Of a stretch of 64,000 bases of DNA, positions 4,612 through 63,290 are shown in pieces. This DNA is from Engelhardtia mirabilis (GTDB lineage Bacteria > Planctomycetota > UBA1135 > GCA-002686595), in NCBI GenBank assembly GCA_007751255.1, contig CP036296.1:6200001-6264000 (forward strand). The letters are read 5' to 3'. The notes under the pieces were generated by a model. That model was not told the origin of the DNA, did no database searches, and saw only the letters and a program-made list of their open reading frames with translations. The translations under genes and the position numbers were made by a program. Position 1 is the first letter of the stretch. Each line of letters opens with the position of its first letter.

Positions 4612-4622
4612 TCCATCGCGGG

Positions 4623-4640
4623 GTGGATCCCGGGATCCAC
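4623..4640. repeat. 18-base perfect palindrome
   Basis: GTGGATCCCGGGATCCAC is self-complementary and lies 12 bases after the stop codon of the aromatic-rich protein gene. It sits just before the longer terminator-like hairpin and may be part of the same transcription end. Confidence 0.5.
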
Positions 4641-4647
4641 TCCTGAG

Positions 4648-4693
4648 CGACCACGCGGGCGGGCGGGCCGAAGGGCTCGCCCGCCCGCGGTCG
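4648..4693 (+). terminator. GC-rich hairpin after the peroxidase operon
   Basis: CGACC pairs with GGTCG, and GCGGGCGGGCG pairs with CGCCCGCCCGC around a short loop, giving a long GC stem downstream of the exported protein gene. There is no T-tract, so it may act as an mRNA 3' end stabiliser rather than a classical intrinsic terminator. Confidence 0.55.
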
Positions 4694-4787
4694 TTCGGCC
4701 GGAGTTTGCGAACAGTGCTGTAACCACGGGGGGTGCCGATCGTCCTGGTGGGGGCGCCACCGACTATGCTGCTGACCACCCCCGCCG

Positions 4788-5996
4788 ATGGACCCGACCG
4801 ATCACTTCACCGTCCCGCTCCTCGACCGCGCCGCCAAGGAGCGCCGCGAGTTGGCAGAGCTCGCGCCCTTCGCCCTGAAGTCGGCCCAGAGCGGTGGCCG
4901 TAGGGTGCCGGAGGGGCCGGACCTCTTGCGCACGGACTTCGAGCGCGACCGCGACCGGATCGTGCACACGACCGCCTTCCGGCGGCTGATGTACAAGACC
5001 CAGGTCTTCGTCAATCGAGAGGGGGACCACAACCGCACGCGCCTGTCCCACAGCCTCGAGGTGGCCCAGGTCGCGCGCTCCGTGGGCGGGGCCCTGCGGC
5101 TGAACGACCCCCTGTGCGAGGCCCTGGCCCTGGCCCACGACATTGGCCACCCGCCGTTCGGGCACCGCGGCGAGTGGGCCCTCGACCGCCAGATGAAGGA
5201 CCACGGCGGCTTCCGTCACAACGCCCAGGTGCTGCGCGTGATCGACATTCTCGAGCGCAGAAGCCCGGACTACGCGGGGCTGAACCTGACCCGCGAGACG
5301 CGCGAGTCCCTGCTCAAGCACGAGAAGGCGGAGGACTGGCCCGAAGAGTTCGGACCCAAGCCGCGCCACCCCTACCTCGAGGCCCAGGTCGTCGACCTGG
5401 CCGATTCCACCGCCTACAACGTGCACGACGTCGAGGACGGCCTGCGCGCGCAGATGTTCAGCGAGGCCGACCTGGAGGCCGGCTCTCGCCTGTGGCGCGA
5501 ATCGCGCGAGCGAGTCGAGGCACGGCATCCCGGTTTCTTGAGCAACACGGCGGACCGCCAGTTGCGCGTCAAGCGCATCTCGAACGAGCTGATCAAGCGC
5601 TGCATCGAGGACCTGATCGAGGCCTCCGCCCACGCCATCGCCGCAGCCGGTCTGCAGCAGCCGGACGACGCCCGCCGTCGCCACGAGATGACCATCGGGC
5701 ACTCCGCCGAGCTGGCGCCGGAGGTGGCCGAGCTACAGCAGTTCCTGTACCGCTCGTTCTATCGCCACCCCCACCTGCAGCGCCTGACCGAGTACGCCTC
5801 GGACGTGATCGACGTGCTCTTCCAGGCCTACCTCCGCGCGCCCCAGGACCTGCCCCCTTGGTACCGCTCCTGGATCGACCAGGTGGGTCTGGAACGAATG
5901 GTCTGCGACTACGTCGCCGGCATGACCGACCGCTTCGCCGAGTCCGAGTACGAGCGCATCACGGGGCGACGGCCGTTCGGCCCCTCAGGCACCTGA
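4788..5996 (+). CDS. dgt: dGTPase-like dNTP triphosphohydrolase
   Basis: This 402-residue HD-superfamily enzyme hydrolyses dNTPs to nucleosides and triphosphate in the cytoplasm. The N-terminal block RTDFERDRDRIVHTTAFRRL, the first metal histidine in SHSLEVAQVARS (H88) and the HD pair in AHDIGHPPFGH (H117, D118) are typical. VVDLADSTAYNVHDVED supplies the later aspartate. Its length matches the shorter Dgt-like class rather than the 505-residue E. coli enzyme, so it may accept several dNTPs. It starts at ATG 4788. It follows the peroxidase operon terminator and appears to be transcribed alone. Confidence 0.93.
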   Translation: MDPTDHFTVPLLDRAAKERRELAELAPFALKSAQSGGRRVPEGPDLLRTDFERDRDRIVHTTAFRRLMYKTQVFVNREGDHNRTRLSHSLEVAQVARSVGGALRLNDPLCEALALAHDIGHPPFGHRGEWALDRQMKDHGGFRHNAQVLRVIDILERRSPDYAGLNLTRETRESLLKHEKAEDWPEEFGPKPRHPYLEAQVVDLADSTAYNVHDVEDGLRAQMFSEADLEAGSRLWRESRERVEARHPGFLSNTADRQLRVKRISNELIKRCIEDLIEASAHAIAAAGLQQPDDARRRHEMTIGHSAELAPEVAELQQFLYRSFYRHPHLQRLTEYASDVIDVLFQAYLRAPQDLPPWYRSWIDQVGLERMVCDYVAGMTDRFAESEYERITGRRPFGPSGT

Positions 5997-6001
5997 CGCC
6001 G

Positions 6002-6692
6002 TCAAGGCGCGCGGTCGACCCGCGCCGTGTTGCTCACGGAGGTGACCGAGCCACCCTGGGACGGGTCGAGGGTCGCGAAGGCGAAATCGAGACTCATCCC
6101 CGCGAGGCCGGGAGCGCCCGCGGCGACGCCGATGGCGGCCATCGCGCGGCCCAACTCGTCGAGCTGGCCCAGAGTGTTCATGAAGGGCAGCGTGTTCGGA
6201 GAGCTGAGCAGGCAATCGAACACGAAGTCCTGCACCAGCGGAATCGTCAGCCCGCCGATCGCGGCTCCGGGTGACGTGCCACGGCCCAGGGCCGGGTTGA
6301 CGTCGCCAGCCGCGCCGAGCCCGCGTGGAGCGTGAAGTCCACCGTGCAGCCGATCGAGACGCCGACTACCGCAAGCTTGATCGCGAGGACCTCGACGGCG
6401 ACCCTCGCGACCGATCCCAGGGGGTACTGGCAGACGACGTTCAGGACCGACGAGCCCTCCGCGGCCAAGCGGACGCACGGGCCGAGCCGTTGCCCATGCC
6501 GTCCACGATGGTGAAGAGGGACCCAACCAGGTGGCCGGGCGTCAGGGTCGGATCGCAGCTGTCCGCCATGGACTCGAGGCGCAGGCCGTGGATCGGCTCG
6601 AATCGCCAGCGCGGCTCCACAGCGGGCCCAGGGTCGAGCCCGTCAGGTAGCTCGAGATGGAGACCGGGCGTGGAGTGCTGGACTTCGTTCAT
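6002..6692 (-). pseudogene. Frameshifted remnant of a secreted protein with the shared C-terminal module
   Basis: Three successive minus-strand frames give a coherent protein only if they are joined. The first runs from 6692 to about 6490 and ends near TIVDGMGNGSA. The second runs from about 6475 to 6310 and includes SSVLNVVCQYPLG. The third runs from about 6310 to 6002 and includes GAAIGGLTIPLVQDFVFDC and SVTSVSNTARVDRAP. The last part closely resembles the C-terminal module of the protein at 9153-11171, including ELGRAMAAIGV against DLGRAAATVTV and the SVSN/STVSN ending. No signal peptide is visible, so the N-terminus is also lost. Either the gene is decaying or the assembly has two indels here. 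Confidence 0.55.
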
Positions 6693-48616: not shown

Positions 48617-49573
48617 ATGGCCCTCTCGATCCTCTTCGTCCTCGCAGGACTCGCCGTGCTGATCTTCGGCGGCGAGCTGCTGATCCGCTGCGCGACCCGC
48701 ATCGCGAGCCTGGCCGGTGTCAGCCCAGCCGTGGTCGGCCTGACGATCGTCGCGGCGGGGACGTCGATGCCCGAGCTCGTCGTCTCGGTGCGCAGCGCCC
48801 TGGCCGGCAGCGATTCCCTGGCCGTGGGCAACGTGATCGGTTCGAACAGCTTCAACATCGGCGTGATCCTGGGCCTCGCCGCGCTGATCGCGCCCATCTC
48901 GATCGCCGGCCGAACGGTCCGGCTGGAGTGGCCGGTGATGCTCCTGGCCGCGGTCCAGCTCTACCTGCTCGCGCGGGACGGCCAGGTGGACCGGATCGAG
49001 GGCGCGGCCTTCCTGGTGGCCTTCGTGGCCTTCGTCGCCTACACCCTGAAGATCGCGCGCAGCGAGATGGTGCCCGCCGAGATCGAGCAGTTCGCCGCCA
49101 CCGCCGGGCCGCCGGCCGAGCCGCGGCCCTGGACCCGGAGCATCCTGGGCGTGATCGCCGGCTGCGCCCTCCTGGCCGGCGGCGCCGAGCTGCTGGTCAT
49201 CGGCGCCACCGACCTGGCCCGCTCCCTCGGTGCCTCCGAGGCCGTCATCAGCCTGACCATCGTCGCCGCCGGCACCAGCCTGCCCGAGCTCTCCGCCTCG
49301 GTGATCGCCGCCCTCCGCGGCCGCGGCGACGTCGCCGTCACCAACGTGATCGGCTCCAACATCTTCAACGTCCTGGGCATCGCCGGCACGACGGCGACGA
49401 TCTCGCCTCTGAGCGTCTCCACCGAGCTGATCGAGCGCGACCTCCCGTGGATGCTGGGCTTCTCGCTGCTCCTGTTCCCGCTAATGCGCAGCGGCTACCG
49501 CATCAGCCGGGTCGAGGGCGCGCTGCTGTTGGTGGGGTACGGGGTTTACCTGGCCCTGCTGCTCGGGACGTAG
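48617..49573 (+). CDS. CaCA-family Na+/Ca2+ antiporter-like protein
   Basis: This 318-residue membrane protein has about ten hydrophobic segments in two inverted halves. Each half carries the alpha-repeat: VAAGTSMPELVVSV with GNVIGSNSFNIGVILG in the first, and VAAGTSLPELSASV with TNVIGSNIFNVLGIAG in the second. These E/N-containing motifs bind calcium and sodium in the YrbG/CaxA type. A central loop (PAEIEQFAATAGPPAEPRPW) separates the halves. It starts at ATG 48617, 44 bases after tsaD. It is the last ordinary gene before the accessory region. Confidence 0.93.
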   Translation: MALSILFVLAGLAVLIFGGELLIRCATRIASLAGVSPAVVGLTIVAAGTSMPELVVSVRSALAGSDSLAVGNVIGSNSFNIGVILGLAALIAPISIAGRTVRLEWPVMLLAAVQLYLLARDGQVDRIEGAAFLVAFVAFVAYTLKIARSEMVPAEIEQFAATAGPPAEPRPWTRSILGVIAGCALLAGGAELLVIGATDLARSLGASEAVISLTIVAAGTSLPELSASVIAALRGRGDVAVTNVIGSNIFNVLGIAGTTATISPLSVSTELIERDLPWMLGFSLLLFPLMRSGYRISRVEGALLLVGYGVYLALLLGT

Positions 49574-49749: not shown

Positions 49750-52650
49750 GTGCCCCCCCCTCCCACCATCTCAGCGCCCCCCGCTCCCGGATCCCGCGTC
49801 CTCGCGCGGGACGAGGAGTGGATCGTGCGTACCACCAGGCGCGCCTCGACCGGGGGTCACGCCGTGTACGTCACCGGGACCTCGGACCTTGTCCGAGGGC
49901 GCGACGCGGTCTTCCTGACGGCCCTGGACGCGATCGAGGAGCTGCGGCCGGAGGAGACCAGGCTGGTGGCCGACGGTTCGCCGCGCTTTCGCACCAGCCG
50001 GCTGTATCTGGAGAGCCTCCTGCGCCGCACCCCGCCGGCGGGCACGGCCCTGTCCCTGGGGCACCGAGCGGCCCTCGACCCAGCGGACTACCAGCTCCAG
50101 CCGGCCGTGAAGGCCCTGGCCCAGCCTCGACCGCGGATCCTGATGGCCGACGGCGTGGGCCTGGGCAAGACGGTCGAGGTCGGGATCCTGCTCGCCGAGC
50201 TGATCGCCCGCGGCCGCGGCGACCGGATCCTGGTCGTGTGCCTGAAGTCGATCCTGGCCCAGTTCCAGAAGGAGCTGTGGTCGCGCTTCACGATCCCGCT
50301 GGTACGCCTCGACTCGGTCGGCATCCAGCGCGTGCGCTCGAAGATCCCGTCCACCGAGAACCCCTTCTACTTCTTCGACCGCGCGATCATCTCGATCGAC
50401 ACGCTCAAGAAGGACCGCAAGTACCGGCGCTTCCTCGAGGAGAGCCGCTGGGACGCGATCGTGATCGACGAGTGTCAGAACGTCGCCGATCGCTCGGGCG
50501 CGCGCACGACCAGCGCAGGCGCGTCGCAGCGCTATCGCCTGGCGAGGCTGCTGGCGCGCACGACGGACGCGTTGATCCTGACCTCGGCGACGCCGCACGA
50601 TGGCAAGCCCGAGTCCTTCGCGAGCCTGATGAACCTGCTCGAGCCGACGGCGGTCGCCGACCCGTCGAACTTCACCAAGGACGAGGTCGAGGGCTACTTC
50701 CTGCGGCGCTTCAAGAAGGACGTCGCGGGCGAGGTCGGCGAGGCCTTCCGCGAGCGCGAGCTGCGGCCGCTGCACATCGACGCGGGGCGTGAGGAGTGCG
50801 CGGCCCTCGCCGCGATCCAGGCCGCGACGTTCAAGACGGTCGAGCGGGTCAAGCACGGCAAGGGCAAGGGGATCCTGTTCCGGACGCTGCTCCTGAAGGG
50901 CTTCCTGTCGTCGCCGGCGGCGTGCCTGGAAACGATCGGTGAGCGCCTGAAGAAGCTCGACGCCCTGGATGCCGCCGGCCAGGACGCGGAGAACGTCGCG
51001 CACGACCGCGCCGCGCTCGAAGCCATCGCCGAGAAGGCCGGCGCCGTCGAGCCCGCGGTGTTCTCCAAGCTCGCGCGTTTCCTCGACGAGATGCGGCCGC
51101 TGCTCGACGACGGCGAGCGCGTGGTCGTGTTCTCCGAGCGCATCGCGACCCTCAAGCTCCTGCAGGAGCGCCTGTGCGCCAAGAAGGGCGCCGGCGGCCT
51201 CGCGCTGAAGGCCGACGCCGCGCCGATCTTCCACGGCGCCCTCGACGACCAGCGCCAGCGCGAGCTGCTCGAGTCCTTCCAGGCCGCCGACTCCAAGATC
51301 CGCGTCCTGCTCGCCTCCGACGCGGCGTCCGAGGGCCTGAACCTCCACTTCCACTGCCGCCACCTGGTGCACTTCGACCTGCCCTGGTCGCTGATCACCC
51401 TCGAGCAACGCAACGGCCGCATCGACCGCTTCGGCCAGCCGCGGACGCCGATCATCACCTACCTGATCACGCGCACGGACGACGAGGCGCTGAAGGCGGA
51501 CCTGCGCGTGCTCGACGTCTTGTGGGCCAAGGAGCAGGTCGCGCACGAGCAGCTCGGCGACGCCGCGATGCTGATGAACCTGCACGACGCGGAGGCCGAG
51601 GAAGAGCACCTGGCGCAGACGATCGAGGAGGAGGCGGATCCCGAGGGCGCCTTCCTGTCGCCGGCGCAGGCCGATGCGCTGCTGGCGCTGTTTGGAACGG
51701 GCTCGGAGCCGACGCCGGAGCGGCGCGAGCCGCTGCGGCTGTTCCCCGACGACCTCGACTACGCGCGCGAGGCGTTCGAGCAGGCCCTCGGGCCCGACAC
51801 CGACCTGATCGAGTGGCACGAGAACCTCGCGGGCTTCACCCTGCGCCCGCCCGACGACCTGTTGCGCCGCTTCGACTACCTGCCGCCCGAGCTGATCCGC
51901 GCCGAGGGCAAGAAGCAGAACGCCGAGCTCAAACTCACCACCGATCGCCGCCGAGTCGCCGACGCCCTCGACGCAGCGCGGGCGAAGAGCGACGCCTGGC
52001 CCGAGTGGCAGCTGTTCTGGGAGCTGAACCCGGTCAGCCAGTGGCTCGACGACAAGGTCCTCGAGGGATTGGCGCGGCACGAGGCGCCGGTGATCCCGGT
52101 GAGTGAAGGTTTGGCCGAGCGCGAGGTCTGCTTCGTGTTCCAGGGAATCCTCTCGAACGAGCGCGGCCGCGCCGTCGTCGTCGAGTGGTTTGGCGTGAGC
52201 TACGCCGGCGGGAGGAAGACGGGGATCCGTTCGCTCGAGGCGCTGCTCGAGGCCACTGGCCTCCGCGCGGGGCCGCCGAACCGTGGCGGACTCGATCAGG
52301 AATTCCTCGACGCTCTGGGAGAACTCCGCCGCTTCGCCGTCGGCTCAGCACGAACTCACCTCGAGAGCGTCGCCAAACGGCGCGAGTCAGAACTCGCCGA
52401 CCTCCTGGACGAGGGCCTGCACCGCCTCGAGGCCTGGCGCGCCAAGCGCGTCGCCCAGCGCGAAGCGCGCCGCCGCAAGATCGCCGAGAAGGGCCGCCAG
52501 GCGACGACCTTCGAGCGCAAGCGCTTCGAGGCGGAGAAGCAGAACGAAGACGAGATCCACGCCGAACGGAAGGCGTGGATCAAAGAAGAGATGACAACCG
52601 TCGACAAGCCGTTCGTGCGGTTGGCGGCGGTCTTGATCAAGGAGAAATGA
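49750..52650 (+). CDS. SNF2-type DNA helicase/translocase of a defence operon
   Basis: This 966-residue superfamily 2 ATPase starts at a GTG with no clear ribosome site. After a 120-residue N-terminal region it has LMADGVGLGKTVEVGILLAE (Walker A near 131-140) and VIDECQNVADR (D240, E241). LILTSATPHDGKPESF follows. The second lobe has VVFSERIATLKLLQERL, LLASDAASEGLNLHF and LITLEQRNGRIDRFGQ. This pattern is that of RapA/HepA-like SNF2 proteins such as DISARM DrmD and the helicase of helicase-methylase-ATPase systems. The last 150 residues are charged and helical. It would move on DNA or remodel it in concert with the methylase. The DUF6602 gene starts 2 bases after its stop. Confidence 0.88.
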   Translation: MPPPPTISAPPAPGSRVLARDEEWIVRTTRRASTGGHAVYVTGTSDLVRGRDAVFLTALDAIEELRPEETRLVADGSPRFRTSRLYLESLLRRTPPAGTALSLGHRAALDPADYQLQPAVKALAQPRPRILMADGVGLGKTVEVGILLAELIARGRGDRILVVCLKSILAQFQKELWSRFTIPLVRLDSVGIQRVRSKIPSTENPFYFFDRAIISIDTLKKDRKYRRFLEESRWDAIVIDECQNVADRSGARTTSAGASQRYRLARLLARTTDALILTSATPHDGKPESFASLMNLLEPTAVADPSNFTKDEVEGYFLRRFKKDVAGEVGEAFRERELRPLHIDAGREECAALAAIQAATFKTVERVKHGKGKGILFRTLLLKGFLSSPAACLETIGERLKKLDALDAAGQDAENVAHDRAALEAIAEKAGAVEPAVFSKLARFLDEMRPLLDDGERVVVFSERIATLKLLQERLCAKKGAGGLALKADAAPIFHGALDDQRQRELLESFQAADSKIRVLLASDAASEGLNLHFHCRHLVHFDLPWSLITLEQRNGRIDRFGQPRTPIITYLITRTDDEALKADLRVLDVLWAKEQVAHEQLGDAAMLMNLHDAEAEEEHLAQTIEEEADPEGAFLSPAQADALLALFGTGSEPTPERREPLRLFPDDLDYAREAFEQALGPDTDLIEWHENLAGFTLRPPDDLLRRFDYLPPELIRAEGKKQNAELKLTTDRRRVADALDAARAKSDAWPEWQLFWELNPVSQWLDDKVLEGLARHEAPVIPVSEGLAEREVCFVFQGILSNERGRAVVVEWFGVSYAGGRKTGIRSLEALLEATGLRAGPPNRGGLDQEFLDALGELRRFAVGSARTHLESVAKRRESELADLLDEGLHRLEAWRAKRVAQREARRRKIAEKGRQATTFERKRFEAEKQNEDEIHAERKAWIKEEMTTVDKPFVRLAAVLIKEK

Positions 52651-52651
52651 A

Positions 52652-53452
52652 ATGCCTAGGAAGCGAAAGGAGAAGGAACCTATCGACTATGGCCCGAAGC
52701 AAGCGCTGAAGGACCTGACAGACGAGATCAGGGCGGTCGAGTGCAAGATCCGGAACCTGATCGGCGATGCTCACTGGGGCACTGACGGCGCTCACAAAGA
52801 AGCCGTTCTTCGAGCACTGCTTCGCGAGCGGCTACCAAAATCGCTCGACGTCGCAACGGGGTTCGTCCTTCACCGCGATCAACGCTCAAGACAAGTTGAC
52901 ATCCTAGTGATCGAAGGCTCGAAGCCCGTCTTCATGCGCGACGGCGACTTTGTGATCTGTGGAGCCGACGCGGTCGTCGGGATGATCGAGGTCAAGTCCG
53001 ACACGACAAGATGGGCCCCCGGGGACTGGAGCGACGCCATCTCTCACCTGCAGGATTCCGCGACGCCGTGCCGCCAACGCGCGAATGAGCATCGTACTCG
53101 TCCGCCGTTTGTCGGCCTGTTCGCCCTCCACGGAAACGAGAACGCGGCGAATAACGCCATGAAGGCGGCGGCGTCACTTGGGGACCCCACCACCTCGTCA
53201 GTCAACCATCTCTGCGTAGGGTCCGAGTACTTTTGCCGGATCGAAGAATCATCGGATGGCCCGACCACACAGGGCGGCGACACGACCTACGTCTGGCAAG
53301 GCTACGAGCTGACAAGCCTGGCTTTCGGCTACTTCATCGGGAACCTGATGGCTTGGATCGACATCGCCCACGGCGACGAGCACGTCTACCGCTATTTCCC
53401 GGTCGATAAGCAGGACGGACCGAAGCTCGACGCGGTGCGCGTGTTGGATTGA
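52652..53452 (+). CDS. DUF6602 protein, predicted PD-(D/E)XK nuclease
   Basis: This 266-residue soluble protein matches the DUF6602 pattern: HWGTDGAHKEAVLRALLRERLPK, then ATGFVLHRDQRSRQVDILVIEG and VVGMIEVKSD. The residues D83, E113 and K115, with E50 upstream, form a standard PD-(D/E)XK catalytic set, so DNA cleavage is predicted. GGAGAA inside the helicase end serves as its ribosome site, and the methylase starts 4 bases after its stop. Codon use is clearly less GC-biased than in the helicase before and most of the methylase after, suggesting a separately acquired cassette. It may be the nuclease of the system or an embedded independent defence gene. Confidence 0.8.
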   Translation: MPRKRKEKEPIDYGPKQALKDLTDEIRAVECKIRNLIGDAHWGTDGAHKEAVLRALLRERLPKSLDVATGFVLHRDQRSRQVDILVIEGSKPVFMRDGDFVICGADAVVGMIEVKSDTTRWAPGDWSDAISHLQDSATPCRQRANEHRTRPPFVGLFALHGNENAANNAMKAAASLGDPTTSSVNHLCVGSEYFCRIEESSDGPTTQGGDTTYVWQGYELTSLAFGYFIGNLMAWIDIAHGDEHVYRYFPVDKQDGPKLDAVRVLD

Positions 53453-53455
53453 ACC

Positions 53456-56400
53456 ATGCCCCTCTCCCTCCCCGGCATCCACAACGACGGTGAGTTCTTC
53501 TCCGAGCACTACCTGCAGGCGGTGCTCGAAGGCGACCTCGCCCCGTTGTTCAAGCGTTGGGCGGAGGAGCACCAGGCCGGCGCGCGCGCGCGCCTCCCCC
53601 AGGACGCCCTGCTCGGCCTCGCCGAGAAGTGGTTCGCGGCGCGCGCGCGGGCCGACGAGGCGGACGGCGCGTCCGAGACCGACACGCTCGCGCGCCTCGA
53701 CGCCGCGCGCGACTTCCACGCGCACCTCCTGGAGGCGCTCGGCTACGACCGGGCCCCCGACGCCCACGTGCTCGAGGACGGCAGCGCCCTCCCTGTCGCC
53801 CTGACCCTCGAGCGCGACTCGCGGCCCTTCCTCCTGGTCTGCGAGACCGCCTTCGCGCGCGGCGACGACGACGACCCGCTCGACACGGCCCCCTTGCGCG
53901 CGCAGCTCCCGCCGGGCACGCCCGAGACCACGCCCCTGCCGAAGCTCGGCCGCGGCGCCGCCACCTGGCGCGAGGTCCTCGACGAGCTGGTCTTCCGCGA
54001 GGAGCGCGCGCCGCGCTTCGTCCTGCTCCTCACCGGCGGCGAGGCCGTCCTCGCCGAGCGCCACAAGTGGGGCCAGGGCCGCGCCCTGCGCTTCGACTGG
54101 TCCGAGCTGTTCGGACGCAAGGACAAGGCCGCCGCCCGCGCCGCCGCGGGCCTGTTGCACGCCGAGGCCCTGGCCCCCGACTCCGGCCCGCCCCTGCACG
54201 ACGAGCTGGACGAGAACAGCCACCGCCACGCCTACGCCGTCTCCGCCGACCTCAAGTACGGCGTCCGCCGCGCGGTCGAGCTGATCGGCAACGAGGCCGT
54301 GCACTTCAAGCGCGAGCGCGACCGCGCCGCCAAGCAGCGCCAGGAGGTCTTCCACGAGGGGCCCGAGTTCGAGGCGGAGCTGACCCGCGACTGCCTCACC
54401 TACCTCTACCGGCTGCTGTTTCTGTTCTACGTCGAGGCGCGCGGCGCCGAGCTGGGCGTCGTGCCGATGCAGAGCCGCATCTACCGCGACGGCTACAGCC
54501 TCGAGAGCCTGCGGGCCCTCGAGCTCGTGCCCCTGCACACCGACGCCGCGCGCAACGGATTCTTCCTGCACGAGAGCCTCCAGCGCCTGTTCGGCGTCGT
54601 GCAGGGCGGCTTCCCGCCTGGTGCGACGGACGACCCCGCCGACCTGTACGCGACGGCCCACGACGACGAGAAGCCCCTGCACGACTCGTTCCTGATGGAC
54701 GGGGTCGCGAGCCCGCTGTTCGACGACGCGCGCCTGGGGCCCCTTGGCGGCGTGCGCCTTCGCAACTGGGTCGTGCAGGAGGTCCTGCAGCTGTTGTCCC
54801 TGTCCGCCGAGCGCCGGGGCAAGAGCCGCGGGCGCATCTCCTACGCCCAGCTCGGCGTGAACCAGCTCGGCGCGGTGTACGAGGGGCTGCTCTCCTACAC
54901 CGGCTTCTTCGCCCAAGACGACCTGTACGAGGTCGCGGCCAAGGCGGACGTGCCCAAGCTCGAGAAGCCGGAAGAGCGCGAGAAGGTCCGCACCTACTTC
55001 GTCGGCGCCTCGCGCGCGGGCGACTACCGCGAGGACGAGTTCGTGCGCGACACAGGCGGCTCGCGCGTGGTGCACGAGCGCGGCACGTTCCTGTTCCGCC
55101 TGGCGGGGCGCGACCGCGAGAAGTCGGCGAGCTACTACACGCCCGAGGTCCTGACGCGGTGCCTGGTGAAGTACTCCCTGCGCGAGCTGTTGTACGAGCC
55201 GCAGAGCGAGGAGGAGCTCGGCCGCGCACCGCTCGTGTTCAAGCTGTCGGCGCGGGAGATCCTCGACCTGACCGTGTGCGAGCCGGCCATGGGCTCGGGC
55301 GCGTTCCTGGCCGAGGCGGTGGACCAGCTCGCCGATGCGTACCTGGCGCGGCGGCAGGAGGAGCTGGGCGAGACCCTGCCGTCGGACCGCTACGCGCGCG
55401 AGAAGCGGCGGGTGAAGGCGCGGCTGGCGACGAACAACTGCTACGGCGTCGACCTGAACCCGGTGGCCGTGGACCTCGCGAAGACGAGTCTGTGGCTGGC
55501 GACGTTGTACGAGGGCGGCAAGTGCCCTTGGTTCGGGCTGCGGCTCGCCTACGGCAACAGCCTGGTCGGGGCGCGGCGCGAGGTGTTCAGGGTCGGCGAC
55601 CTGACGACCAAGGGCTCCAAGGCCGAGCCGAACTGGTTGGGGCAGGCGCCTGAGGCCGTGCCGTTCGTGAAGGAGGGCGGCGAGCTGCCGCGCGAGGCCG
55701 ACTTCGCCGCGGGCGGGGCCGATTGGTCCCTGCCGCCGCGGCCGAAGCACAGCGTGTACCACTTCCTCGTGCCGTCGGACGGCATGGCGCCGTTCGGCAA
55801 GGACAAGGTGGTCAAGGAGCTGGCGCCAGAGGACGCCGAGCGGCTGCGGAAGTGGCAGAAGAAGTTCACCGTGCCGTTCACGAAGGACGAGGCGCGGCGC
55901 CTCGAGCGCTTGTCGGACGCGGTGGATCGGCTGTGGGCGGAGGTCTGTCGCGAGCGGGTGTTGGCGACGGCGGCGACGGACGACCGCATTCCGGTGTGGG
56001 AGGAGCCGGAGGCCGAGGGCGAGCTGTGGCGGGAGGATCTGGCGGCGACGGCGAGTGGCGGGGACGCGACGGCGAGCCTGGCGGCGGAGGGGTCGTGGTC
56101 GGGTGGGGACGACGGCGGGCTGGCGGATCCGGCGGGCTCGAGCGACGAGGAGCTGTCGGGGGAGCAGTCCGAGGCCCGGGCCGAGCGGCGGCGGGACGCG
56201 CGGCTGAACCCGCGCGTGCAGGATCAAGAGGCGGTCGCGGCGCGGCTCGAGGAGGCGTCGAGCGCGAGTCGGCGATTGCGGCTGATCATGGACGCGTGGT
56301 GCGCGCTGTGGTTCTGGCCGGTGAAGGAGTCAGCGCAGCTGCCGAGCCGAGCGCAGTGGTTGGCGACGCTCGAGTTGGTGTTGACGGGCAAGTTGGATGC

Positions 56401-58852
56401 GTCGGTCACCGATCCGCTGATGACCCAACAGCTCACGTTCGGGGACGAGGCTGTGGCGCCGAGCGAGGGCGCGGTCGCCCCCGCGAGTCTGGCCGACCCC
56501 GCGAGCGGCGCCATGGCCGCCGCATCGACGGCGACGTTGACCCTGCCCGAGGTCGATGGCCGGAGCCTCCCCGCCCCCCTCGCGCGTCTGAGCGAGCTCG
56601 AAGACGAGCTGGCCCAACTCCGCGCCGCGCACGGCGAAGCCCTCGGCACCGCCGACGTGGACGCGATCACCAAGGCGACGCCGTGGCTTCAAGTCGTCGC
56701 CCGCCTCGCGACGCGATACCGATTCCATCACTGGCACCTGCGCTTCGCCGAGGTCCACGCGCTCCGCGGCGGATTCGACCTGATCCTCGGGAACCCGCCG
56801 TGGATCCTCGTCTCCTTCAACGAGCAGGCCGTCCTGGCCGACTTCGAACCCGCCGTTGACCTCCGGAAGCTCAGCGCCTCAAAGGTCGCGAAGCAGCGAA
56901 CACGCATCCTCGATACGTTCGATGCGGCGAACCTCTACATCGGCGAACTCGAGGCTCAGACCGCCACGCAGGACTACCTCGGTTCGATCCACAACCAGCC
57001 CCTCCTCCAGGGGATGAAGGCGAACTCGTACAAGGCCTTTGTCACCGTGGCCTGGCAAGTCACCAGCGCTCCAGGCACCGTCGGAATGATTCACCCTCCA
57101 GGAGTGTTCGACGACCCGAAAGGTGGGGCTCTCCGACTCGAGGTCTACCGCCGACTTCGGCTCCACGCGCGGTTCGTCAACATCCTTGCACTCTTCGAGA
57201 TCGGAGTACTTCGCCCGTACGCATTGAACGTCTACGGCCCACGACAGGAAGATCAGCCCTTCCTCATGATCTCGAACTTGATCCATCCAAGAACAATCGA
57301 CTCGGCTGTCTCTCACGACGGTCTCGGGGTCACCCCCGGCATAAAGAGCGCCGACGGGGCCTTTGAGACTCGCGGCCACCGCCGAAGGCTCGTCTACGTC
57401 GGCCTATCCGAACTCGCACTCTTTGCAAGGCTCTATGACAAACCCGGAACTCCAGCCTCAAGCGCCCGACTGCCGACGGTTCACAGCATCGAGATCTTGT
57501 CGGCACTGGGCCGTCTGTCTCAAGGCTCAACTCGACTTGGCGACGTGGCCCATTACTCGACGCAGCTCTGGAACGAGACGAATGCACAGGACGACGAGAC
57601 GATCGCTCGGCAGACGACCACACCAAAGGAGGAGGCTGGCCTAATCATCCAGGGCCCTCACTTCTACGTTGGATCGCCGCTCTACCAGACCCCCCGTGAG
57701 AGCTGCAAGAGCAAGGGCGACTACAACAGCATCGACCTCACCGCGATCCCCGACGACTACCTCCCCCGCACCAACTACGTCCCCGCCTGCCGCCCGACCG
57801 TCTACGCCGAGCGCACCCCCAAGGTCCCCTGGAACGGCCGCCCGGTCACGGACTTCTACCGCTACGTCAATCGTCGAGCGATCAGCCCGACCGGCGAGCG
57901 AACGCTGATCCCGTCGATCATGCCTCCGGGAGCTGCGCACATCGACGGCGTGCTTTCGGTCACCGCGGAGCTGGAAGTCATCGCGACTCTTGCAGCGTTC
58001 GCCGTTTCCCTTCCAGCGGACCTGTTCATCAAGACCACAGGCAAGTCGGACTGCCGCAACGACTTGCTTTCCCGACTCCCGCTACCAGAGGCCTGCGGCG
58101 CGCCTCCGGCTCGACTGCGACTTCTTCGACTTGTCTGCGTCACCTCTCACTACGCGGACCTGTGGAGCGAGCTTCAGCCCGACGCGAGCAAGAGTCAGGT
58201 CTTCGCGTCGAACGACCCTCGGCTGGAACACTTGGGTCTCGAGCGATGTGGGTGGTCGCGGTCAGTTCCACTCCGCACCGACCTCTCCCGCCGCCAAGCC
58301 CTCGTCGAGCTCGACGTCCTCGCCTCTAACGCCCTCGGCCTCACCCTCGACGAGCTGCTGACGATCTACCGCGCGCAGTTCCCGGTGCTCCAGCAGTACG
58401 AGCGCCAGAACCGCTACGACCAACACGGCCGCCTCGTCCCGACGTCCGAGACCATCGGCGACGAGAAGGGCGTGAGCCTCCTCAAGCTCGCCGACCGCCT
58501 GGCAGAGCAGGTCGGCTTCGACTCGACCCGCCCCTACCCCGACGGCGCCCCCGAGACCGAGGAGCTCCTGGCCGGGCGCGCCCACCTGGCCAAACGCGAC
58601 GCCGAGATCCTCGCCGTCCCCGAGCGCCCCACCCTCCGCGACCTCATGACCCCCACCGAGGTCACCTACCACGACCACCCGACGCCCCCGAGCGCCGGCG
58701 CCACGCGCACCCGAACCGAAACCCTCTGGGCCCTCCGCTACACCGACCCCGGCCTCGAGCCCCGCCTCGAACGCACCTACCCAACCCCGTGGACCCGCCA
58801 CGACCGCGAGACGGACTACACACGTTCGTGGCGTTCGCCGCTGATCCCATAA
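53456..58852 (+). CDS. Large Eco57I/PglX-like adenine-specific DNA methylase
   Basis: This 1798-residue protein has the N-terminal helical region typical of BREX PglX and Eco57I-type enzymes (DCLTYLYRLLFLFYVEARG). The SAM motif CEPAMGSGAFLAEAVDQL lies near residues 606-623. NCYGVDLNPVAVDLAKTSLWL follows, and the catalytic ILGNPPW is at 1110-1116. About 490 residues separate these motifs, including a low-complexity acidic stretch near 860-925. The C-terminal part (1120-1600) should hold the target-recognition domain, followed by a conserved-looking tail (ALGLTLDELLTIYRAQFPVLQQYERQNRYDQHGR). It likely methylates adenine to mark self DNA. No clear nuclease site was recognised. Base composition switches within the C-terminal third. 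Confidence 0.88.
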   Translation: MPLSLPGIHNDGEFFSEHYLQAVLEGDLAPLFKRWAEEHQAGARARLPQDALLGLAEKWFAARARADEADGASETDTLARLDAARDFHAHLLEALGYDRAPDAHVLEDGSALPVALTLERDSRPFLLVCETAFARGDDDDPLDTAPLRAQLPPGTPETTPLPKLGRGAATWREVLDELVFREERAPRFVLLLTGGEAVLAERHKWGQGRALRFDWSELFGRKDKAAARAAAGLLHAEALAPDSGPPLHDELDENSHRHAYAVSADLKYGVRRAVELIGNEAVHFKRERDRAAKQRQEVFHEGPEFEAELTRDCLTYLYRLLFLFYVEARGAELGVVPMQSRIYRDGYSLESLRALELVPLHTDAARNGFFLHESLQRLFGVVQGGFPPGATDDPADLYATAHDDEKPLHDSFLMDGVASPLFDDARLGPLGGVRLRNWVVQEVLQLLSLSAERRGKSRGRISYAQLGVNQLGAVYEGLLSYTGFFAQDDLYEVAAKADVPKLEKPEEREKVRTYFVGASRAGDYREDEFVRDTGGSRVVHERGTFLFRLAGRDREKSASYYTPEVLTRCLVKYSLRELLYEPQSEEELGRAPLVFKLSAREILDLTVCEPAMGSGAFLAEAVDQLADAYLARRQEELGETLPSDRYAREKRRVKARLATNNCYGVDLNPVAVDLAKTSLWLATLYEGGKCPWFGLRLAYGNSLVGARREVFRVGDLTTKGSKAEPNWLGQAPEAVPFVKEGGELPREADFAAGGADWSLPPRPKHSVYHFLVPSDGMAPFGKDKVVKELAPEDAERLRKWQKKFTVPFTKDEARRLERLSDAVDRLWAEVCRERVLATAATDDRIPVWEEPEAEGELWREDLAATASGGDATASLAAEGSWSGGDDGGLADPAGSSDEELSGEQSEARAERRRDARLNPRVQDQEAVAARLEEASSASRRLRLIMDAWCALWFWPVKESAQLPSRAQWLATLELVLTGKLDASVTDPLMTQQLTFGDEAVAPSEGAVAPASLADPASGAMAAASTATLTLPEVDGRSLPAPLARLSELEDELAQLRAAHGEALGTADVDAITKATPWLQVVARLATRYRFHHWHLRFAEVHALRGGFDLILGNPPWILVSFNEQAVLADFEPAVDLRKLSASKVAKQRTRILDTFDAANLYIGELEAQTATQDYLGSIHNQPLLQGMKANSYKAFVTVAWQVTSAPGTVGMIHPPGVFDDPKGGALRLEVYRRLRLHARFVNILALFEIGVLRPYALNVYGPRQEDQPFLMISNLIHPRTIDSAVSHDGLGVTPGIKSADGAFETRGHRRRLVYVGLSELALFARLYDKPGTPASSARLPTVHSIEILSALGRLSQGSTRLGDVAHYSTQLWNETNAQDDETIARQTTTPKEEAGLIIQGPHFYVGSPLYQTPRESCKSKGDYNSIDLTAIPDDYLPRTNYVPACRPTVYAERTPKVPWNGRPVTDFYRYVNRRAISPTGERTLIPSIMPPGAAHIDGVLSVTAELEVIATLAAFAVSLPADLFIKTTGKSDCRNDLLSRLPLPEACGAPPARLRLLRLVCVTSHYADLWSELQPDASKSQVFASNDPRLEHLGLERCGWSRSVPLRTDLSRRQALVELDVLASNALGLTLDELLTIYRAQFPVLQQYERQNRYDQHGRLVPTSETIGDEKGVSLLKLADRLAEQVGFDSTRPYPDGAPETEELLAGRAHLAKRDAEILAVPERPTLRDLMTPTEVTYHDHPTPPSAGATRTRTETLWALRYTDPGLEPRLERTYPTPWTRHDRETDYTRSWRSPLIP

Positions 58853-58881
58853 CTCAACGTCCATAGAATCGAGGAGAGACA

Positions 58882-60690
58882 ATGCCGGAGCACGACGCTG
58901 CCCCTGAGATTGAAGAACTAGCGGCAACCGCCGTAGACACCGAGCCTGACCGCCCTGGACGACTCAGAAGTATCCTCGTCCGCAACTTCCGAGCAATCGG
59001 CGCCACAGGGGTCGAGATTGAGCTGGATGACATCGTGGTCCTCGTTGGACCGAACAATGCAGGTAAGTCATCGATTCTTAGGGCCTATGAGCTCGTGATG
59101 GCGGAAGGAACGGGAGATGAAGCGCTCGACCTCGACGACTTCCCCAATCGACAGGTCATTGAGAACGCCCTCCCAACGATCGAGACGACAACCGCTCTTG
59201 GGGGTGGCCGTCCACCCGCCGCAAAGTACATCTATGCCGACACGGAAACAGGAGAGAGGCTCGTCAAAGAACGCTGGGTTTGGCATATCCCGGGGGCCAA
59301 GCCGGTCCGGCAGGGCTTCGATGTCGAACTCGGTCAATTTGTCGATGAGAAGCCCTGGGGGTTCGCTGGAGTAGCGAAGCCGAATCGTCCGCGGCCTCAC
59401 GTAGTTGGCCCCTTCATGACCCCAGCGGACATCTCGGATCGCGTATCAGGGATCCTGTCTTCCGCGCTGAAGAAGCGACAGAAGAACCTCCGCGAAGACG
59501 AGGGACCTAATGGCCAGGCATACCGTGAGCTCACGGCCCAGCTCGCTTCACTCCAGAGCAGCCTCGCGGAAGCCGAACGCGGCGCTGTCGCTGGCATCGA
59601 GGCTCGAATATCCGAGCACCTCGGCAGCGTCTTCGGCGGCTTCAATGTCCGAGTGGACGCCCGAGCAGAAGATCAGCTCGAGAAGTCGCTTTCGCTTTTC
59701 AAGTCAGCGCCCATTCTCCGCATGGGGCGAACAGCTGAACAGGCAACCGATCTTTCGCGTCAAGGAAGCGGAACATGCAGGGCCCTCTTCTGGGCGACTC
59801 TGATGGCCCTAGCAGAGTCGAGCGCGGACGGTGAGACAAACATGCCGACAGACCTCCTCATCGTTGATGAACCTGAGCTGTCGCTCCACCCTGACAGGAT
59901 TCGGTCGGCCGCCGACGCACTCTACACTCTCGCCGAGCGAGATGGCTGGCAGGTCATGATCGCCACACACTCGCCAGTCTTCGTCGATTTTCGCCGCGAC
60001 CACACATCGATCGTCAGGGTCGAGATCGACGACGACCACACCGCCACGGGCTGCACGATCTTTCGACCCTCGAAAGCTCATTTTGATGACGACGACCGAC
60101 AGAACCTAAAGCTGCTCAACATCTGCGATCCGCACGTGGCCGAATTCTTCTTTGGCGGCCGCGTCGTCGTAGTCGAGGGCGACACCGAGTATGCAGCCCT
60201 CCAACTTGCAGCAAATTCGATCGAAGACGATACGAGCGACGTCCACGTCGTTCGGGCTCGCGGCAAGTGGACAATCGCGTCCGTAGCGAAGATCTTGAAT
60301 CAATTCAACGTAGGATACTCAGTCCTTCACGACTCAGATGCGATTAGCGACGCCCCGCAGTCGCCATGGGCGGCCAATCAACGAATACTGGATGCCACTG
60401 CGCCCGGGCGCGAAACTGAGCGGGTTCGGCTTGTTGCGTCGGTTCCCAACTTCGAGGAAGCGTACCTTCAGTCAACAGCGACCGCCGACAAACCCTACCG
60501 AGCCGTCAAGAGGCTTACCGAATCGCCAGAAGCCATGGCGCGTGTTCAGCAGCTGCTCAGGTCACTTCTCTCTCCGGACCAAGCGATCCCCGAAGGCGCC
60601 GTTGAGTGGAGCAGCATGGACGACCTTCGCCATGCGGTAGCCGAGGCTGCAGCAGCCGTGCAGCCCACGGTGGGAGCACGAGTGGAGTAG
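58882..60690 (+). CDS. OLD-family ATPase with TOPRIM nuclease domain
   Basis: This 602-residue protein follows the methylase by 29 bases and has a good ribosome site (GAGGAGAG at 58871-58878). The SMC/RecF-type ATPase shows SILVRNFRAIG, Walker A GPNNAGKS (56-63), a signature-like DLSRQGSGTCRALFWATLMAL, Walker B LLIVDEPELSLHPD and the ATHSP switch. The TOPRIM domain shows VVVVEGDTEYAAL (E432) and HDSDAISD (D484, D486). Together these indicate an ATP-regulated DNA nuclease like OLD/GajA. No UvrD-like GajB partner follows. Codon use is less GC-biased than in the surrounding region. It is probably the ATPase of the operon or an associated defence nuclease. Confidence 0.9.
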   Translation: MPEHDAAPEIEELAATAVDTEPDRPGRLRSILVRNFRAIGATGVEIELDDIVVLVGPNNAGKSSILRAYELVMAEGTGDEALDLDDFPNRQVIENALPTIETTTALGGGRPPAAKYIYADTETGERLVKERWVWHIPGAKPVRQGFDVELGQFVDEKPWGFAGVAKPNRPRPHVVGPFMTPADISDRVSGILSSALKKRQKNLREDEGPNGQAYRELTAQLASLQSSLAEAERGAVAGIEARISEHLGSVFGGFNVRVDARAEDQLEKSLSLFKSAPILRMGRTAEQATDLSRQGSGTCRALFWATLMALAESSADGETNMPTDLLIVDEPELSLHPDRIRSAADALYTLAERDGWQVMIATHSPVFVDFRRDHTSIVRVEIDDDHTATGCTIFRPSKAHFDDDDRQNLKLLNICDPHVAEFFFGGRVVVVEGDTEYAALQLAANSIEDDTSDVHVVRARGKWTIASVAKILNQFNVGYSVLHDSDAISDAPQSPWAANQRILDATAPGRETERVRLVASVPNFEEAYLQSTATADKPYRAVKRLTESPEAMARVQQLLRSLLSPDQAIPEGAVEWSSMDDLRHAVAEAAAAVQPTVGARVE

Positions 60691-60915: not shown

Positions 60916-61116
60916 ATGCCACTCCAGGACGCGATCGACCTCGCCGAGTTCCTCGTTGATCTCACGTGTCGGTGGTATCGTTCCAGGCTCGGTGCGCCGA
61001 CCGTCGGAGGCCCGATCGAGATCGCCGCGATCGAAGAGCACCAGGACGTTCGCTGGGTCGAGCGCAAGTACGACGACCACGCGGACCTGATCGCCACGGA
61101 GCGCGATGACCAATGA
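60916..61116 (+). CDS. Small unrecognised protein 1 of a coupled pair
   Basis: From ATG 60916 the product has 66 residues, beginning MPLQDAIDLAEFLVDLTCRW; a GTG at 60901 would add five residues. It has an amphipathic helix, then a beta-like stretch with PTVGGPIEIAAIEEHQDVRWVERKY and an acidic end. The composition is protein-like and unlike the shadows around it. I do not recognise the family, though small proteins of this style occur beside defence and peptidase genes. It ends in an ATGA overlap with the next gene. Confidence 0.6.
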   Translation: MPLQDAIDLAEFLVDLTCRWYRSRLGAPTVGGPIEIAAIEEHQDVRWVERKYDDHADLIATERDDQ

Positions 61117-61373
61117 CCGACCGATCGAGAGGAGAGTTCGAGGACGGCTACTTGGCGGCTGACGCGGAGCTCGCTCCCGGTGGGTTCGCGGCCACGGTCG
61201 TGCTCAGCGGCATCAGCCTTGGCGCGATCCAGGGCCCTGCGCCCGCGCCGATGACGATTCGATTCAACTTCAGCGAGGACGCCGCAGCGATCGCTGACGA
61301 CCGGCCGACCTTTGCGGAGGTCGCCGCCTACGTTCTGGACAAGAACGCCGAGCTGCACCGTCGCCTGAGCTAG
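61113..61373 (+). CDS. Small unrecognised protein 2 of a coupled pair
   Basis: This 86-residue protein starts at the ATGA overlap with the preceding small gene. The N-terminal half is acidic and glycine-rich (EFEDGYLAADAELAPGGFAATVVLSG). The C-terminal half looks like a compact alpha/beta unit (TIRFNFSEDAAAIADDRPTFAEVAAYVLDKNAELHRRLS). It has no signal peptide or membrane segment. The overlap with a similarly sized partner indicates that both are real genes expressed together. Their place inside the defence-like region suggests a toxin-antitoxin or sensor-adaptor role, which is inference only. Confidence 0.6.
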   Translation: MTDRSRGEFEDGYLAADAELAPGGFAATVVLSGISLGAIQGPAPAPMTIRFNFSEDAAAIADDRPTFAEVAAYVLDKNAELHRRLS

Positions 61374-61602: not shown

Positions 61603-62802
61603 ATGGCCAAGCCCGTCGACAGCTCGGATTCCGAGGACCGCGAGGACGGTATGAGCCGGCTCCAGATCGAGAACTTCGCCCACCTGCGCTCGGTGGACAT
61701 CGCGTTCGGGGACCTGACGGTCCTCGTCGGGCCGCAGGCGTCGGGCAAGAGCCTGACCCTGCAATGGCTCAAGGCGGCGCTCGACGGCCGGAACATCGTC
61801 AAGGCGCTGACCGACGCCGGGCACCCGGCGGACGAGCCGGCGCACCTCGTCGATCTGATCTTCGGCGTCGGCATGGGCAGCGGCTGGAGCGCCGACAGCT
61901 CGGTCCGGTGGGAGAACCGCGCCGTCGATCCGGGCTCCCTCTCGAGGCGGGGCGACAAGCAAGGCAAGGCGCGGCTGCTCTACATCCCCGCCCACCGCGC
62001 GCTCCTGATCAACGACGGCTGGGCCCAACCCTTCCAGAAGCTCGGCCCCGACACGCCGGTGGTGGCACGCCTGTTCAGCCAGTGGCTGTTCGAGCTGTTC
62101 CGCCCAGCCCTGGACGGCGGCGCCCTGTTCCCACGCGAGCGCGTCCTGAAGAGCGAGTACCGCGACCGGATCGACGCCGCCGTCTTCCACGGCGGTGAGG
62201 TCTCGCTACGGGAGGACGAGGGGCGGGTGCGTCGGCTGCATCTCACTCACGGGGACGTCCAGCTCCCGTTCATGACCTGGACCTCGGGACAGCGTGAGTT
62301 CACGCCGCTGCTCTTCGGTCTCTACAGCGCGCTCCCTCCGCGCAAGCAGACCAAGGACGAGCACCTCGAATGGGTCGTGATCGAGGAGCCCGAGATGGGC
62401 CTGCATCCCGAAGCGATCACGGTGGTCCTCCTGCTGTGCCTCGAACTGCTGTCCCGCGGCTATCGAGTGGTCGTCTCGACGCACTCGCCGCTGGTCCTCT
62501 CGGCGGTCTGGATGCTCCGCCGCCTGCGTGAGATCGGAGCGGGCCCCGAGTTCGTCTGCGACGCCTTCGACGTCCCGGCACGAGGGAAGACGAAGGACGT
62601 CGCGAACGCGGCCCTGGACAGGGGTCGCTCCCTGCGGACGTTCCTGCTCAAGCACGGGCCTGACGGTGTGGTGTCGAAAGACATCTCCAGCCTGGATCCG
62701 GGGTCCGAGGACGACGACGTGTCCGGCTGGGGTGGCCTGGCGGGGTTCGGCTCGCACTTCGGCGAGACGGTCCGGCGCGCGGTCGAGGCGTCGCGGCGAT
62801 GA
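61603..62802 (+). CDS. AAA (ABC-type) ATPase of a two-gene pair
   Basis: This 399-residue protein starts at ATG 61603; ATG 61651 gives the conserved start MSRLQIENFAHLRSVDI and is a good alternative. It is a RecF/SMC-like AAA_21-type ATPase: Walker A VGPQASGKS (42-50), a signature-like TSGQREFTPLLFGLYSAL, Walker B VVIEEPEMGLHPEA near 260-273 and the switch VSTHSPLVL. It has no TOPRIM or other nuclease domain, so an effector is expected in trans. The next gene overlaps its stop (ATGA). Codon use is normal for the genome, unlike the OLD gene. It probably senses phage or damaged DNA and controls its partner. Confidence 0.85.
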   Translation: MAKPVDSSDSEDREDGMSRLQIENFAHLRSVDIAFGDLTVLVGPQASGKSLTLQWLKAALDGRNIVKALTDAGHPADEPAHLVDLIFGVGMGSGWSADSSVRWENRAVDPGSLSRRGDKQGKARLLYIPAHRALLINDGWAQPFQKLGPDTPVVARLFSQWLFELFRPALDGGALFPRERVLKSEYRDRIDAAVFHGGEVSLREDEGRVRRLHLTHGDVQLPFMTWTSGQREFTPLLFGLYSALPPRKQTKDEHLEWVVIEEPEMGLHPEAITVVLLLCLELLSRGYRVVVSTHSPLVLSAVWMLRRLREIGAGPEFVCDAFDVPARGKTKDVANAALDRGRSLRTFLLKHGPDGVVSKDISSLDPGSEDDDVSGWGGLAGFGSHFGETVRRAVEASRR

Positions 62803-63290
62803 CGGGGCCGGTCGAAGGCGCGCTGAAGGCGAAGAGCCCGCTCCGGGCGCAGGTGAAGGCCGGCGTGCGAGCCATGCGACGGCGCGATCGCGGATCGATC
62901 GAGAAACCGGCTCGACCGATGATCGAAGACAGCCTCGACCTCGACTCGGCGACGGCGGCGTCGCGCGGGACCGCGCGGTCGTGGGACTACCTGCTCGGCG
63001 CTCGAGAGACCGGACGCCTGGTCGCGGTGGAGATCCACCCGGTCAAAGCCGGCAACGTCACGGAGATCCTCGAGAAGCGCCGCGCGAGCGAACGGCTCCT
63101 CGCGCGGGAGCTGCGTGCGAGCGAACGCGTCCATGCCTGGGTGTGGATCCCCTCCGGCCGCAGCGACTTCGGGCCGTTCGAGAGAGACCGCCTGCGGCTC
63201 GACCAAGAGGGCGTGCGCCTGGTGTCGAGGCCGGCCTCGGCCGCCCGGCTCGGGCTGAACGGCGTCGCCCCTCGACCCCGCCGTCGCTGA
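62799..63290 (+). CDS. Small nuclease-like partner of the AAA ATPase
   Basis: This 163-residue basic protein overlaps the ATPase gene by ATGA. The N-terminal 60 residues are basic and probably flexible. The core reads RSWDYLLGARETGRLVAVEIHPVK, then EILEKRRASERLLARELR and VHAWVWIPSGRSDF. D63, E78, H80 and K83/K93 are spaced like a divergent PD-(D/E)XK site, with a strand-loop-strand carrying D and ExH. This assignment is tentative. Such a protein could be the effector nuclease of the ATPase, or an adaptor. The last part (RLDQEGVRLVSRPASAARLGL) ends the fold, followed by a basic tail. Confidence 0.75.
   Translation: MTGPVEGALKAKSPLRAQVKAGVRAMRRRDRGSIEKPARPMIEDSLDLDSATAASRGTARSWDYLLGARETGRLVAVEIHPVKAGNVTEILEKRRASERLLARELRASERVHAWVWIPSGRSDFGPFERDRLRLDQEGVRLVSRPASAARLGLNGVAPRPRRR

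Follow-up and report, generated by a model that had tools for sequence, protein, structure and literature searches.

A composite ARMADA locus of the type II lineage, lacking ArmD, in Engelhardtia mirabilis

A 64,000-nucleotide stretch of the Engelhardtia mirabilis genome (GCA_007751255.1; contig CP036296.1, positions 6,200,001-6,264,000 of the forward strand; hereafter the window, from the start of which positions are counted) contains the first part of a composite ARMADA defence locus of the type II lineage without ArmD. This part consists of four genes on the + strand, separated by 1, 3 and 29 bases: armA (49750-52650), encoding a SNF2/RapA/BrxHII-like helicase of 966 amino acids (aa) with SNF2-rel_dom and Helicase_C domains; a gene for a 266-aa DUF6602 protein (52652-53452; PF20247, 2.6e-15); armB (53456-58852), encoding an Eco57I/PglX-type DNA methyltransferase of 1798 aa (Eco57I family); and a gene for a 602-aa OLD-family ATPase-TOPRIM nuclease (58882-60690; AAA_15 and OLD-like_TOPRIM), the first cargo gene after armB. 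A sequence-only reading of the window had these coordinates, strands and gaps right, its four protein families agree with Pfam and PADLOC, and its idea of a composite defence locus is borne out, as separately acquired defence genes lie inside a helicase-methylase system. Its operon is made up of the genes it described but does not stand alone, for the locus continues past the window end to armC, a 2002-aa frame encoding a YprA helicase-nuclease with homology to E. coli ArmC (G000:C1:6274585-6280593, which is 74585-80593 on the window scale, + strand), on the same strand as armB, 15.7 kb from it and 10.6 kb past the window end. The locus is probably an ARMADA type II-lineage core (armA, armB and armC) into which genes of separate origin have entered at two junctions and from which armD has been lost.

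ArmA, ArmB and ArmC as an ARMADA core

A tblastn comparison of the methylase with plasmids matched 271 records, in 27 of which a single place covered at least 80% of the methylase at 33-41% identity. In 11 annotated neighbourhoods in or near those records, the gene directly upstream of the methylase encodes a helicase of SNF2 or DEAD/DEAH type (about 950 aa), and in most of them the genes directly downstream encode a larger DEAD/DEAH helicase (about 2100 aa) and a helicase of UvrD type; in the Cylindrospermopsis neighbourhood the large helicase and UvrD pair is upstream of the methylase instead, and in the Tsukamurella neighbourhood the annotation divides the large helicase between two genes. 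The order helicase, methylase, large helicase, UvrD is the order ArmA-ArmB-ArmC-ArmD of ARMADA type II, which is described in the available text of the ARMADA preprint (PMC12458937, Bell et al.) as four genes in strict order. The window locus has the BrxHII/RapA-like helicase of ARMADA beside the PglX-like methylase, here with DUF6602 in between, and its third helicase is a YprA-family member of the ARMADA/Druantia clade. This ArmC, found by searching the source genome with E. coli ArmC, is 37% identical to the latter over residues 1-1804, and its best PADLOC model is DruE3 (365 bits).

All three proteins pair with those of one relative, a Planctomycetota metagenome-assembled genome (JAJDCO010000057.1; G076), with 54% identity in ArmA over 965 aa and 52% in ArmB over 1807 aligned columns. 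The window and G076 form a sister pair with a support of 1.0 in the trees of ArmA (83 rows), ArmB (88 rows) and ArmC (55 rows), each a single FastTree run, so that the three core proteins share their ancestry. The gene order of G076 is equally split, with ArmA and ArmB followed by 16.6 kb of other genes and then by ArmC and ArmD. Because the window pairs with G076 in three trees and G076 has the same split, the distant armC is most likely the cognate partner of armA and armB, as judged from these comparisons.

The catalytic motifs of the core are kept. All 83 ArmA rows share GLGKT, the DE of motif II, the ATP of motif III and QRNGR; motif II reads DECQ in the window, and its last place is H in 84% of rows. 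ArmB of the window retains the CEPAMGSGAF and NPPW motifs. Near the C-terminus of ArmC, the D of PDLVF and the D, G and H of DGxx(W/Y)H are present in 100% of 55 rows, and may belong to a Vsr-like nuclease. The C-terminal nuclease of ArmC is called Vsr-like in the accessible part of the preprint, according to which E. coli is protected from phages by its ARMADA II, for which the NPPW motif of ArmB and the helicase motifs are needed (PMC12458937); by analogy, the window locus would be expected to act in phage defence. A second methylase-like frame of 983 aa (G000:C1:6094841-6095257), about 159 kb upstream of armB, is 41% identical to ArmB locally, over ArmB residues 537-682.

ArmD was not found in the window locus, and elsewhere in the genome there are only short UvrD-type matches; the locus is therefore classed with the type II lineage, but as a member that lacks ArmD rather than as a full type II system. 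It resembles ARMADA type II in having ArmA, ArmB and ArmC in order, and its sister G076 also has ArmD, but it differs in lacking armD, in having DUF6602 in the armA-armB junction, and in having OLD and other genes, 15.7 kb in all, in the armB-armC junction. A core without ArmD also resembles ARMADA type I, but the window pairs with the ArmD-bearing G076, in trees that hold no labelled type I reference and in which the outgroup (G096) is untyped.

The DUF6602 and OLD genes

The best models of the four genes in PADLOC 2.0.0 have four different labels and do not assign them to one system. The OLD gene matches Old (266.5 bits) and GajA models (93.6 bits) as well as Protein Data Bank (PDB) entry 6p74 (E 3e-20), and like other OLD-family nucleases its product has both an ABC-type ATPase and a TOPRIM domain. 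The DUF6602 protein matches PD_DExK (55.5 bits) and then NucC (38.5 bits). Its residues E50, D83 and E113-V-K115 are invariant in three diverse sequences, an E...D...ExK pattern that we take to be a PD-(D/E)XK-like signature and that NucC would share. From these weak profiles DUF6602 is predicted to be a NucC-like PD-(D/E)XK nuclease. Against a likeness to NucC, the sequence match is weak, NucC being reached in the PDB only at E 0.06 and 0.23, and the single-sequence fold (predicted local distance difference test score of 41) was too poor to use. The top PDB matches of DUF6602, dioxygenase beta subunits (5e-4 and 0.018), were taken as chance. No CD-NTase is among the annotated neighbours of DUF6602 and no paper on DUF6602 was found in the literature; viral contigs yielded no match to the single protein and one (L162) to a three-row alignment, too few sequences to improve the model.

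Both genes are foreign in composition. The G+C content at third codon positions (GC3) of 34 genes outside the island has a mean of 0.915 with a standard deviation of 0.033, and the core genes are host-like in this respect (ArmA 0.931, z +0.5; ArmB 0.898, z -0.5; ArmC 0.926, z +0.3), whereas DUF6602 has a GC3 of 0.749 (z -5.1) and OLD a GC3 of 0.660 (z -7.8). Homologues of DUF6602 and OLD were not found in the other compared ARMADA loci, by tblastn at E<=1e-4 with flanks of about 10 kb, in which distant relatives could be missed, and DUF6602 has no match in any of the six genomes of the phylum that carry an ArmB relative. The foreign GC3 and the lack of matches in other ARMADA loci suggest that DUF6602 and OLD are later arrivals, most likely inserted effectors. 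The armA and armB genes recur together in ARMADA loci, the two nuclease genes were not found with them there, and the exact set of four genes, which had not been recognised as a named system, was not seen elsewhere. The cargo of one related locus (L074) does include an ABC ATPase, but of a different type (PDC-M38A/AbiLi, 196 bits).

In the proposed working of the locus, ArmB would methylate host DNA, and incoming DNA without this modification would be attacked by ArmA together with the ArmC helicase-nuclease, through the putative Vsr-like C-terminus of the latter. The DUF6602 and OLD genes follow closely on armA and armB, respectively, with which they may be co-transcribed, and would supply extra nucleases that are independent of the core or back it up when it is evaded or inhibited, and may cooperate with it. 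A survey of BREX assigns OLD/TOPRIM and PD-(D/E)XK nucleases a back-up or auxiliary effector role, both in BREX itself and in systems related to it (PMC12839542).

The armB-armC junction in related loci

The junctions between core genes were compared in the best 80 of 584 ArmB relatives, which were obtained by a genome scan with an alignment led by the window ArmB and are not a random sample. A junction was counted as filled at 300 bp or more; the split armA of L088 and the split armC of L134 were not counted as cargo, L148 and the rearranged L088 were left out of all three junction counts, and the armB-armC distances of L069, L079, L090, L099 and L136 were computed by hand from match positions. 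The armA-armB junction is filled in 7 of 69 measurable loci (median 24 bp), the armB-armC junction in 44 of 64 (with a median length of 1533 bp, and at least 1 kb in 38 and at least 5 kb in 18), and the armC-armD junction in none of 35. Among the 59 loci in which both of the first two junctions are measurable, 33 have only armB-armC filled and none has only armA-armB filled (sign test, 2e-10). On follow-up of nine loci with no armC seen downstream, armC was found in all nine genomes: in four on an equally long contig, in the same direction and 9.8 to 17.3 kb downstream, in one rearranged, and in four on another contig. The core genes retain their order in the window locus, but in these 44 of 64 relatives the armB-armC junction is open and loaded. 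The state of filling, with unresolved intervals of at least 1 kb scored as filled, changes at least 18 times by parsimony on the 82-tip ArmB tree (mean of shuffles 24, lowest 17). Cargo open reading frames of at least 180 aa are on the arm strand in 75 cases and on the opposite strand in 10; 132 of the 170 open reading frames in gaps at all junctions, some of which are spurious or split core pieces, have no relative among the rest. A 3-kb armB-armC query is matched by 519 of 5426 E. coli genomes, 430 of them with a single place that spans 80% or more of the query; among the matches of this kind listed (30 of the 519 rows were listed) the armB-armC span equals that of the query within tens of bases, so the junction looks closed in E. 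coli, and the remaining genomes may be diverged rather than open.

Departures from the usual layout were also seen. L104 has 6.7 kb of genes between armA and armB (L104:3222-9971), the only armA-armB insertion longer than 1 kb; one of these genes encodes a protein of 1097 aa in the same cluster as ZorD and DrmD-type cargo helicases. L088 is a rearranged ARMADA with armC and armD upstream on the opposite strand and armA in two frames, and armC is in two frames in L034 (L034:14701-20960, annotated as two genes), L102, L109 and L134.

The cargo includes known defence proteins. Thirty cargo proteins, mostly the largest per locus, were picked by hand from 27 loci, and 17 of them matched PADLOC models at 1e-12, some generically (kinase, UvrD-type helicase). 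Among ten window proteins encoded far from the island, two also matched (dGTPase and kinase), so single generic matches mean little, and the argument rests on full-length, high-scoring ones. A locus of Marinobacterium (L080) contains the whole of Zorya I (ZorA 848, ZorB 359, ZorC 772 and ZorD 1502 bits), the only case in which the full gene set of a system is shown, and L079 has ZorA (847 bits) and ZorC (741 bits). Proteins of Zorya II were matched in L100 (ZorA2 703 and ZorB2 335 bits) and L104 (ZorA2 595 bits), of Mokosh in L098 (MkoA 1732 bits), of PsyrT in L140 (995 bits), of Shedu in G184 (L048; SduA 415 bits) and of Ppl in G076 (475 bits); L094 has a DrmD match (854 bits) and L130 a PDC-M49A match (941 bits). 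Ten further cargo proteins, chosen partly for their likeness to Zorya, all matched PADLOC. The other 13 of the 30, without a match at 1e-12, may have functions that are still undescribed.

Of 54 armB-armC stretches scanned, 6 contain incomplete copies of the core genes on either side. In G076 (L069) two copies of the 3' end of armB lie between cargo genes (G076:C113, about 65080-66470), adjoining the Ppl homologue; one encodes 135 aa at 81% identity and is 90% identical at the DNA level over 358 bp, and the other encodes 28 aa. Other copies of the armB 3' end are found in L079 (25 aa), L085 (46 and 39 aa) and L130 (96 aa), and pieces of armC in L121 (residues 1-159), L130 (residues 195-262) and, weakly, L118 (15 aa, E 3e-4). 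Matches in L080, L094, L100, L104, L133 and L140 reflect domains common to cargo and ArmA or ArmC and were not counted, nor was a match in L074 to 23 aa from the middle of its own ArmA. The window has no armB or armC relic. The relics suggest that cargo may enter or be exchanged by recombination at the end of armB. An extension of this idea makes the junction a dedicated accretion site, where incoming defence modules insert at the 3' end of armB and duplicated armB ends stay behind as traces. ARMADA would then be an operonic platform on which entire defence systems are gathered and swapped, with ARMADA itself in control, and OLD and DUF6602 would here replace the lost ArmD; so strong a version is doubtful.

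In the window locus, the genes following OLD are a small open reading frame of 86 aa with no family match, the reality of which is uncertain (61113-61373, +), and two cargo genes on the + strand, for a PDC-M56A-like ATPase (61603-62802; PADLOC 391 bits) and its PDC-M56B-like partner (62799-63290; 61 bits). A gene for a 543-aa protein crosses the window end (63338-64969, -). Beyond the window, up to 74584, are genes for a DUF2357/PDDEXK_7 protein (L049:1101-2645, -), proteins of 811 aa (2832-5267, -) and 308 aa (5278-6204, -) that have no family match, SoFic, a PDC-M21A-like protein, NTP_transf_8 and HTH proteins, and then armC. The DUF2357/PDDEXK_7, 811-aa and 308-aa genes are possibly an undescribed module. 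The GC3 of the 811-aa (0.764) and 308-aa (0.744) genes is strongly deviant, and that of the M21A, NTP_transf_8 and HTH genes is mildly so (z about -2.8). Paralogous Na/Ca exchanger genes, 72-73% identical, are on both sides of the island (48617-49573 and, on the window scale, 84134-85096, which is L055:4134-5096); a neighbouring pair of them was found in none of 40 genomes of the family searched, and no empty site was established. A dGTPase homologue far from the island (4788-5996; PADLOC dGTPase model, 320 bits) is probably a housekeeping protein.

Alternative readings and significance

Several observations weigh against the reading of the locus as a type II-lineage core opened by later arrivals. 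All 47 relatives in which the locus extends 1.2 kb or more beyond a complete ArmC have ArmD, which makes its absence here unusual, and in the available preprint text all four ARMADA II genes are essential in E. coli (PMC12458937); for these two reasons, restriction by the core may differ from what was published or may not occur. It is unlikely that armC shares a transcript with armA and armB, because several of the intervening genes are on the opposite strand. The 1- and 3-base gaps around DUF6602 could be those of a long-standing unit, and composition does not mark all cargo, as the genes for M56A (0.907), SoFic (0.893) and DUF2357 (0.926) have host-like GC3. The missing armD, with the 15.7 kb before armC, could be taken to mean that ARMADA is decaying, so that the core no longer restricts and only the inserted modules are active. 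This is unlikely, given that the reading frames of armA, armB and armC are long and open and retain the conserved motifs, that type I ARMADA has a three-gene core without ArmD according to the same preprint text (PMC12458937), and that long armB-armC intervals are common in relatives retaining ArmD. The same absence, together with the common strand and the short gaps, could instead mean that the four genes are one integrated system in which ArmA and ArmB would detect DNA that lacks the modification, with DUF6602 and OLD as dedicated cutters that replace ArmC and ArmD; ArmD is described as RelE-GajB-like in the accessible part of PMC12458937, and OLD, with its matches to GajA models, could take an effector role. 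However, DUF6602 and OLD are compositional outliers and the core genes are not, tblastn found no homologue of either in the other compared ARMADA loci or of DUF6602 in the six genomes of the phylum with an ArmB relative, and armC is still there with its motifs kept; integration of the four genes is accordingly rated as improbable.

The sequence-only reading had likened the helicase and methylase to those of DISARM class 1 and helicase-methylase-ATPase (Hma) systems and had favoured either an Hma-type system or a new combination. The SNF2 helicase and the methylase are indeed related to those of DISARM class 1: the top PADLOC model of the helicase is DrmD (321 bits), with matches also to HmaA (156 bits) and to a model that bears the label DrmA (235 bits), and the methylase matches DrmMI (192 bits). 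However, the DrmD equivalog of NCBIfam scores 336 bits against a cut-off of 610, and REase_MTase_IIG, the top model of the methylase, reaches a far higher score than DrmMI (757.6 bits). Neither DUF499 (HmaC) nor phospholipase-D (DrmC) is in the complete Pfam results of 15 locus proteins, from which the 543-aa protein was left out, and DrmB, DrmC and HmaC are not among the PADLOC matches listed. The earlier remark that drmA, drmB and drmC were not visible holds for drmB and drmC, but a YprA helicase of the drmA family is present outside the window, which is DruE-like and not DrmA-like (53 bits), and the relatives carry ArmC and ArmD and not the partners of DISARM or Hma. The methylase of Hma (HmaB) is labelled m5C in the accessible part of PMC8565338 but N6-type in that of PMC12839542, so this property is no argument against Hma. 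An Hma or DISARM class 1 system is thus very improbable, and an ARMADA core with inserted genes is the preferred reading.

The principle of embedding is already known: embedded defence genes are described, citing Payne et al. (preprint 10.1101/2024.01.29.577857), for Hma in the available text of PMC12111858 and for type I restriction-modification loci in that of PMC12629846. The window locus resembles Hma with embedded genes (HEC), so far as the latter is described there, in having defence genes between the genes of a helicase-methylase host, but the host here is ARMADA, and the junction and the cargo are others. ARMADA as a host was not found in print, no such embedding being reported in the accessible parts of PMC12458937, PMC13192584 and PMC12904381, with mainly open-access literature covered. 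The edge of a window can split such a locus, the first half of which then mimics a new system. The broader result is the loaded armB-armC junction, with at least one relative that holds a complete second defence system. This junction is a simple place to look for undescribed defences, the armB relics offer a testable route for the swapping of defence genes, and ARMADA is a further host for embedded defences, which looks like a shelf for the collection of defence genes.

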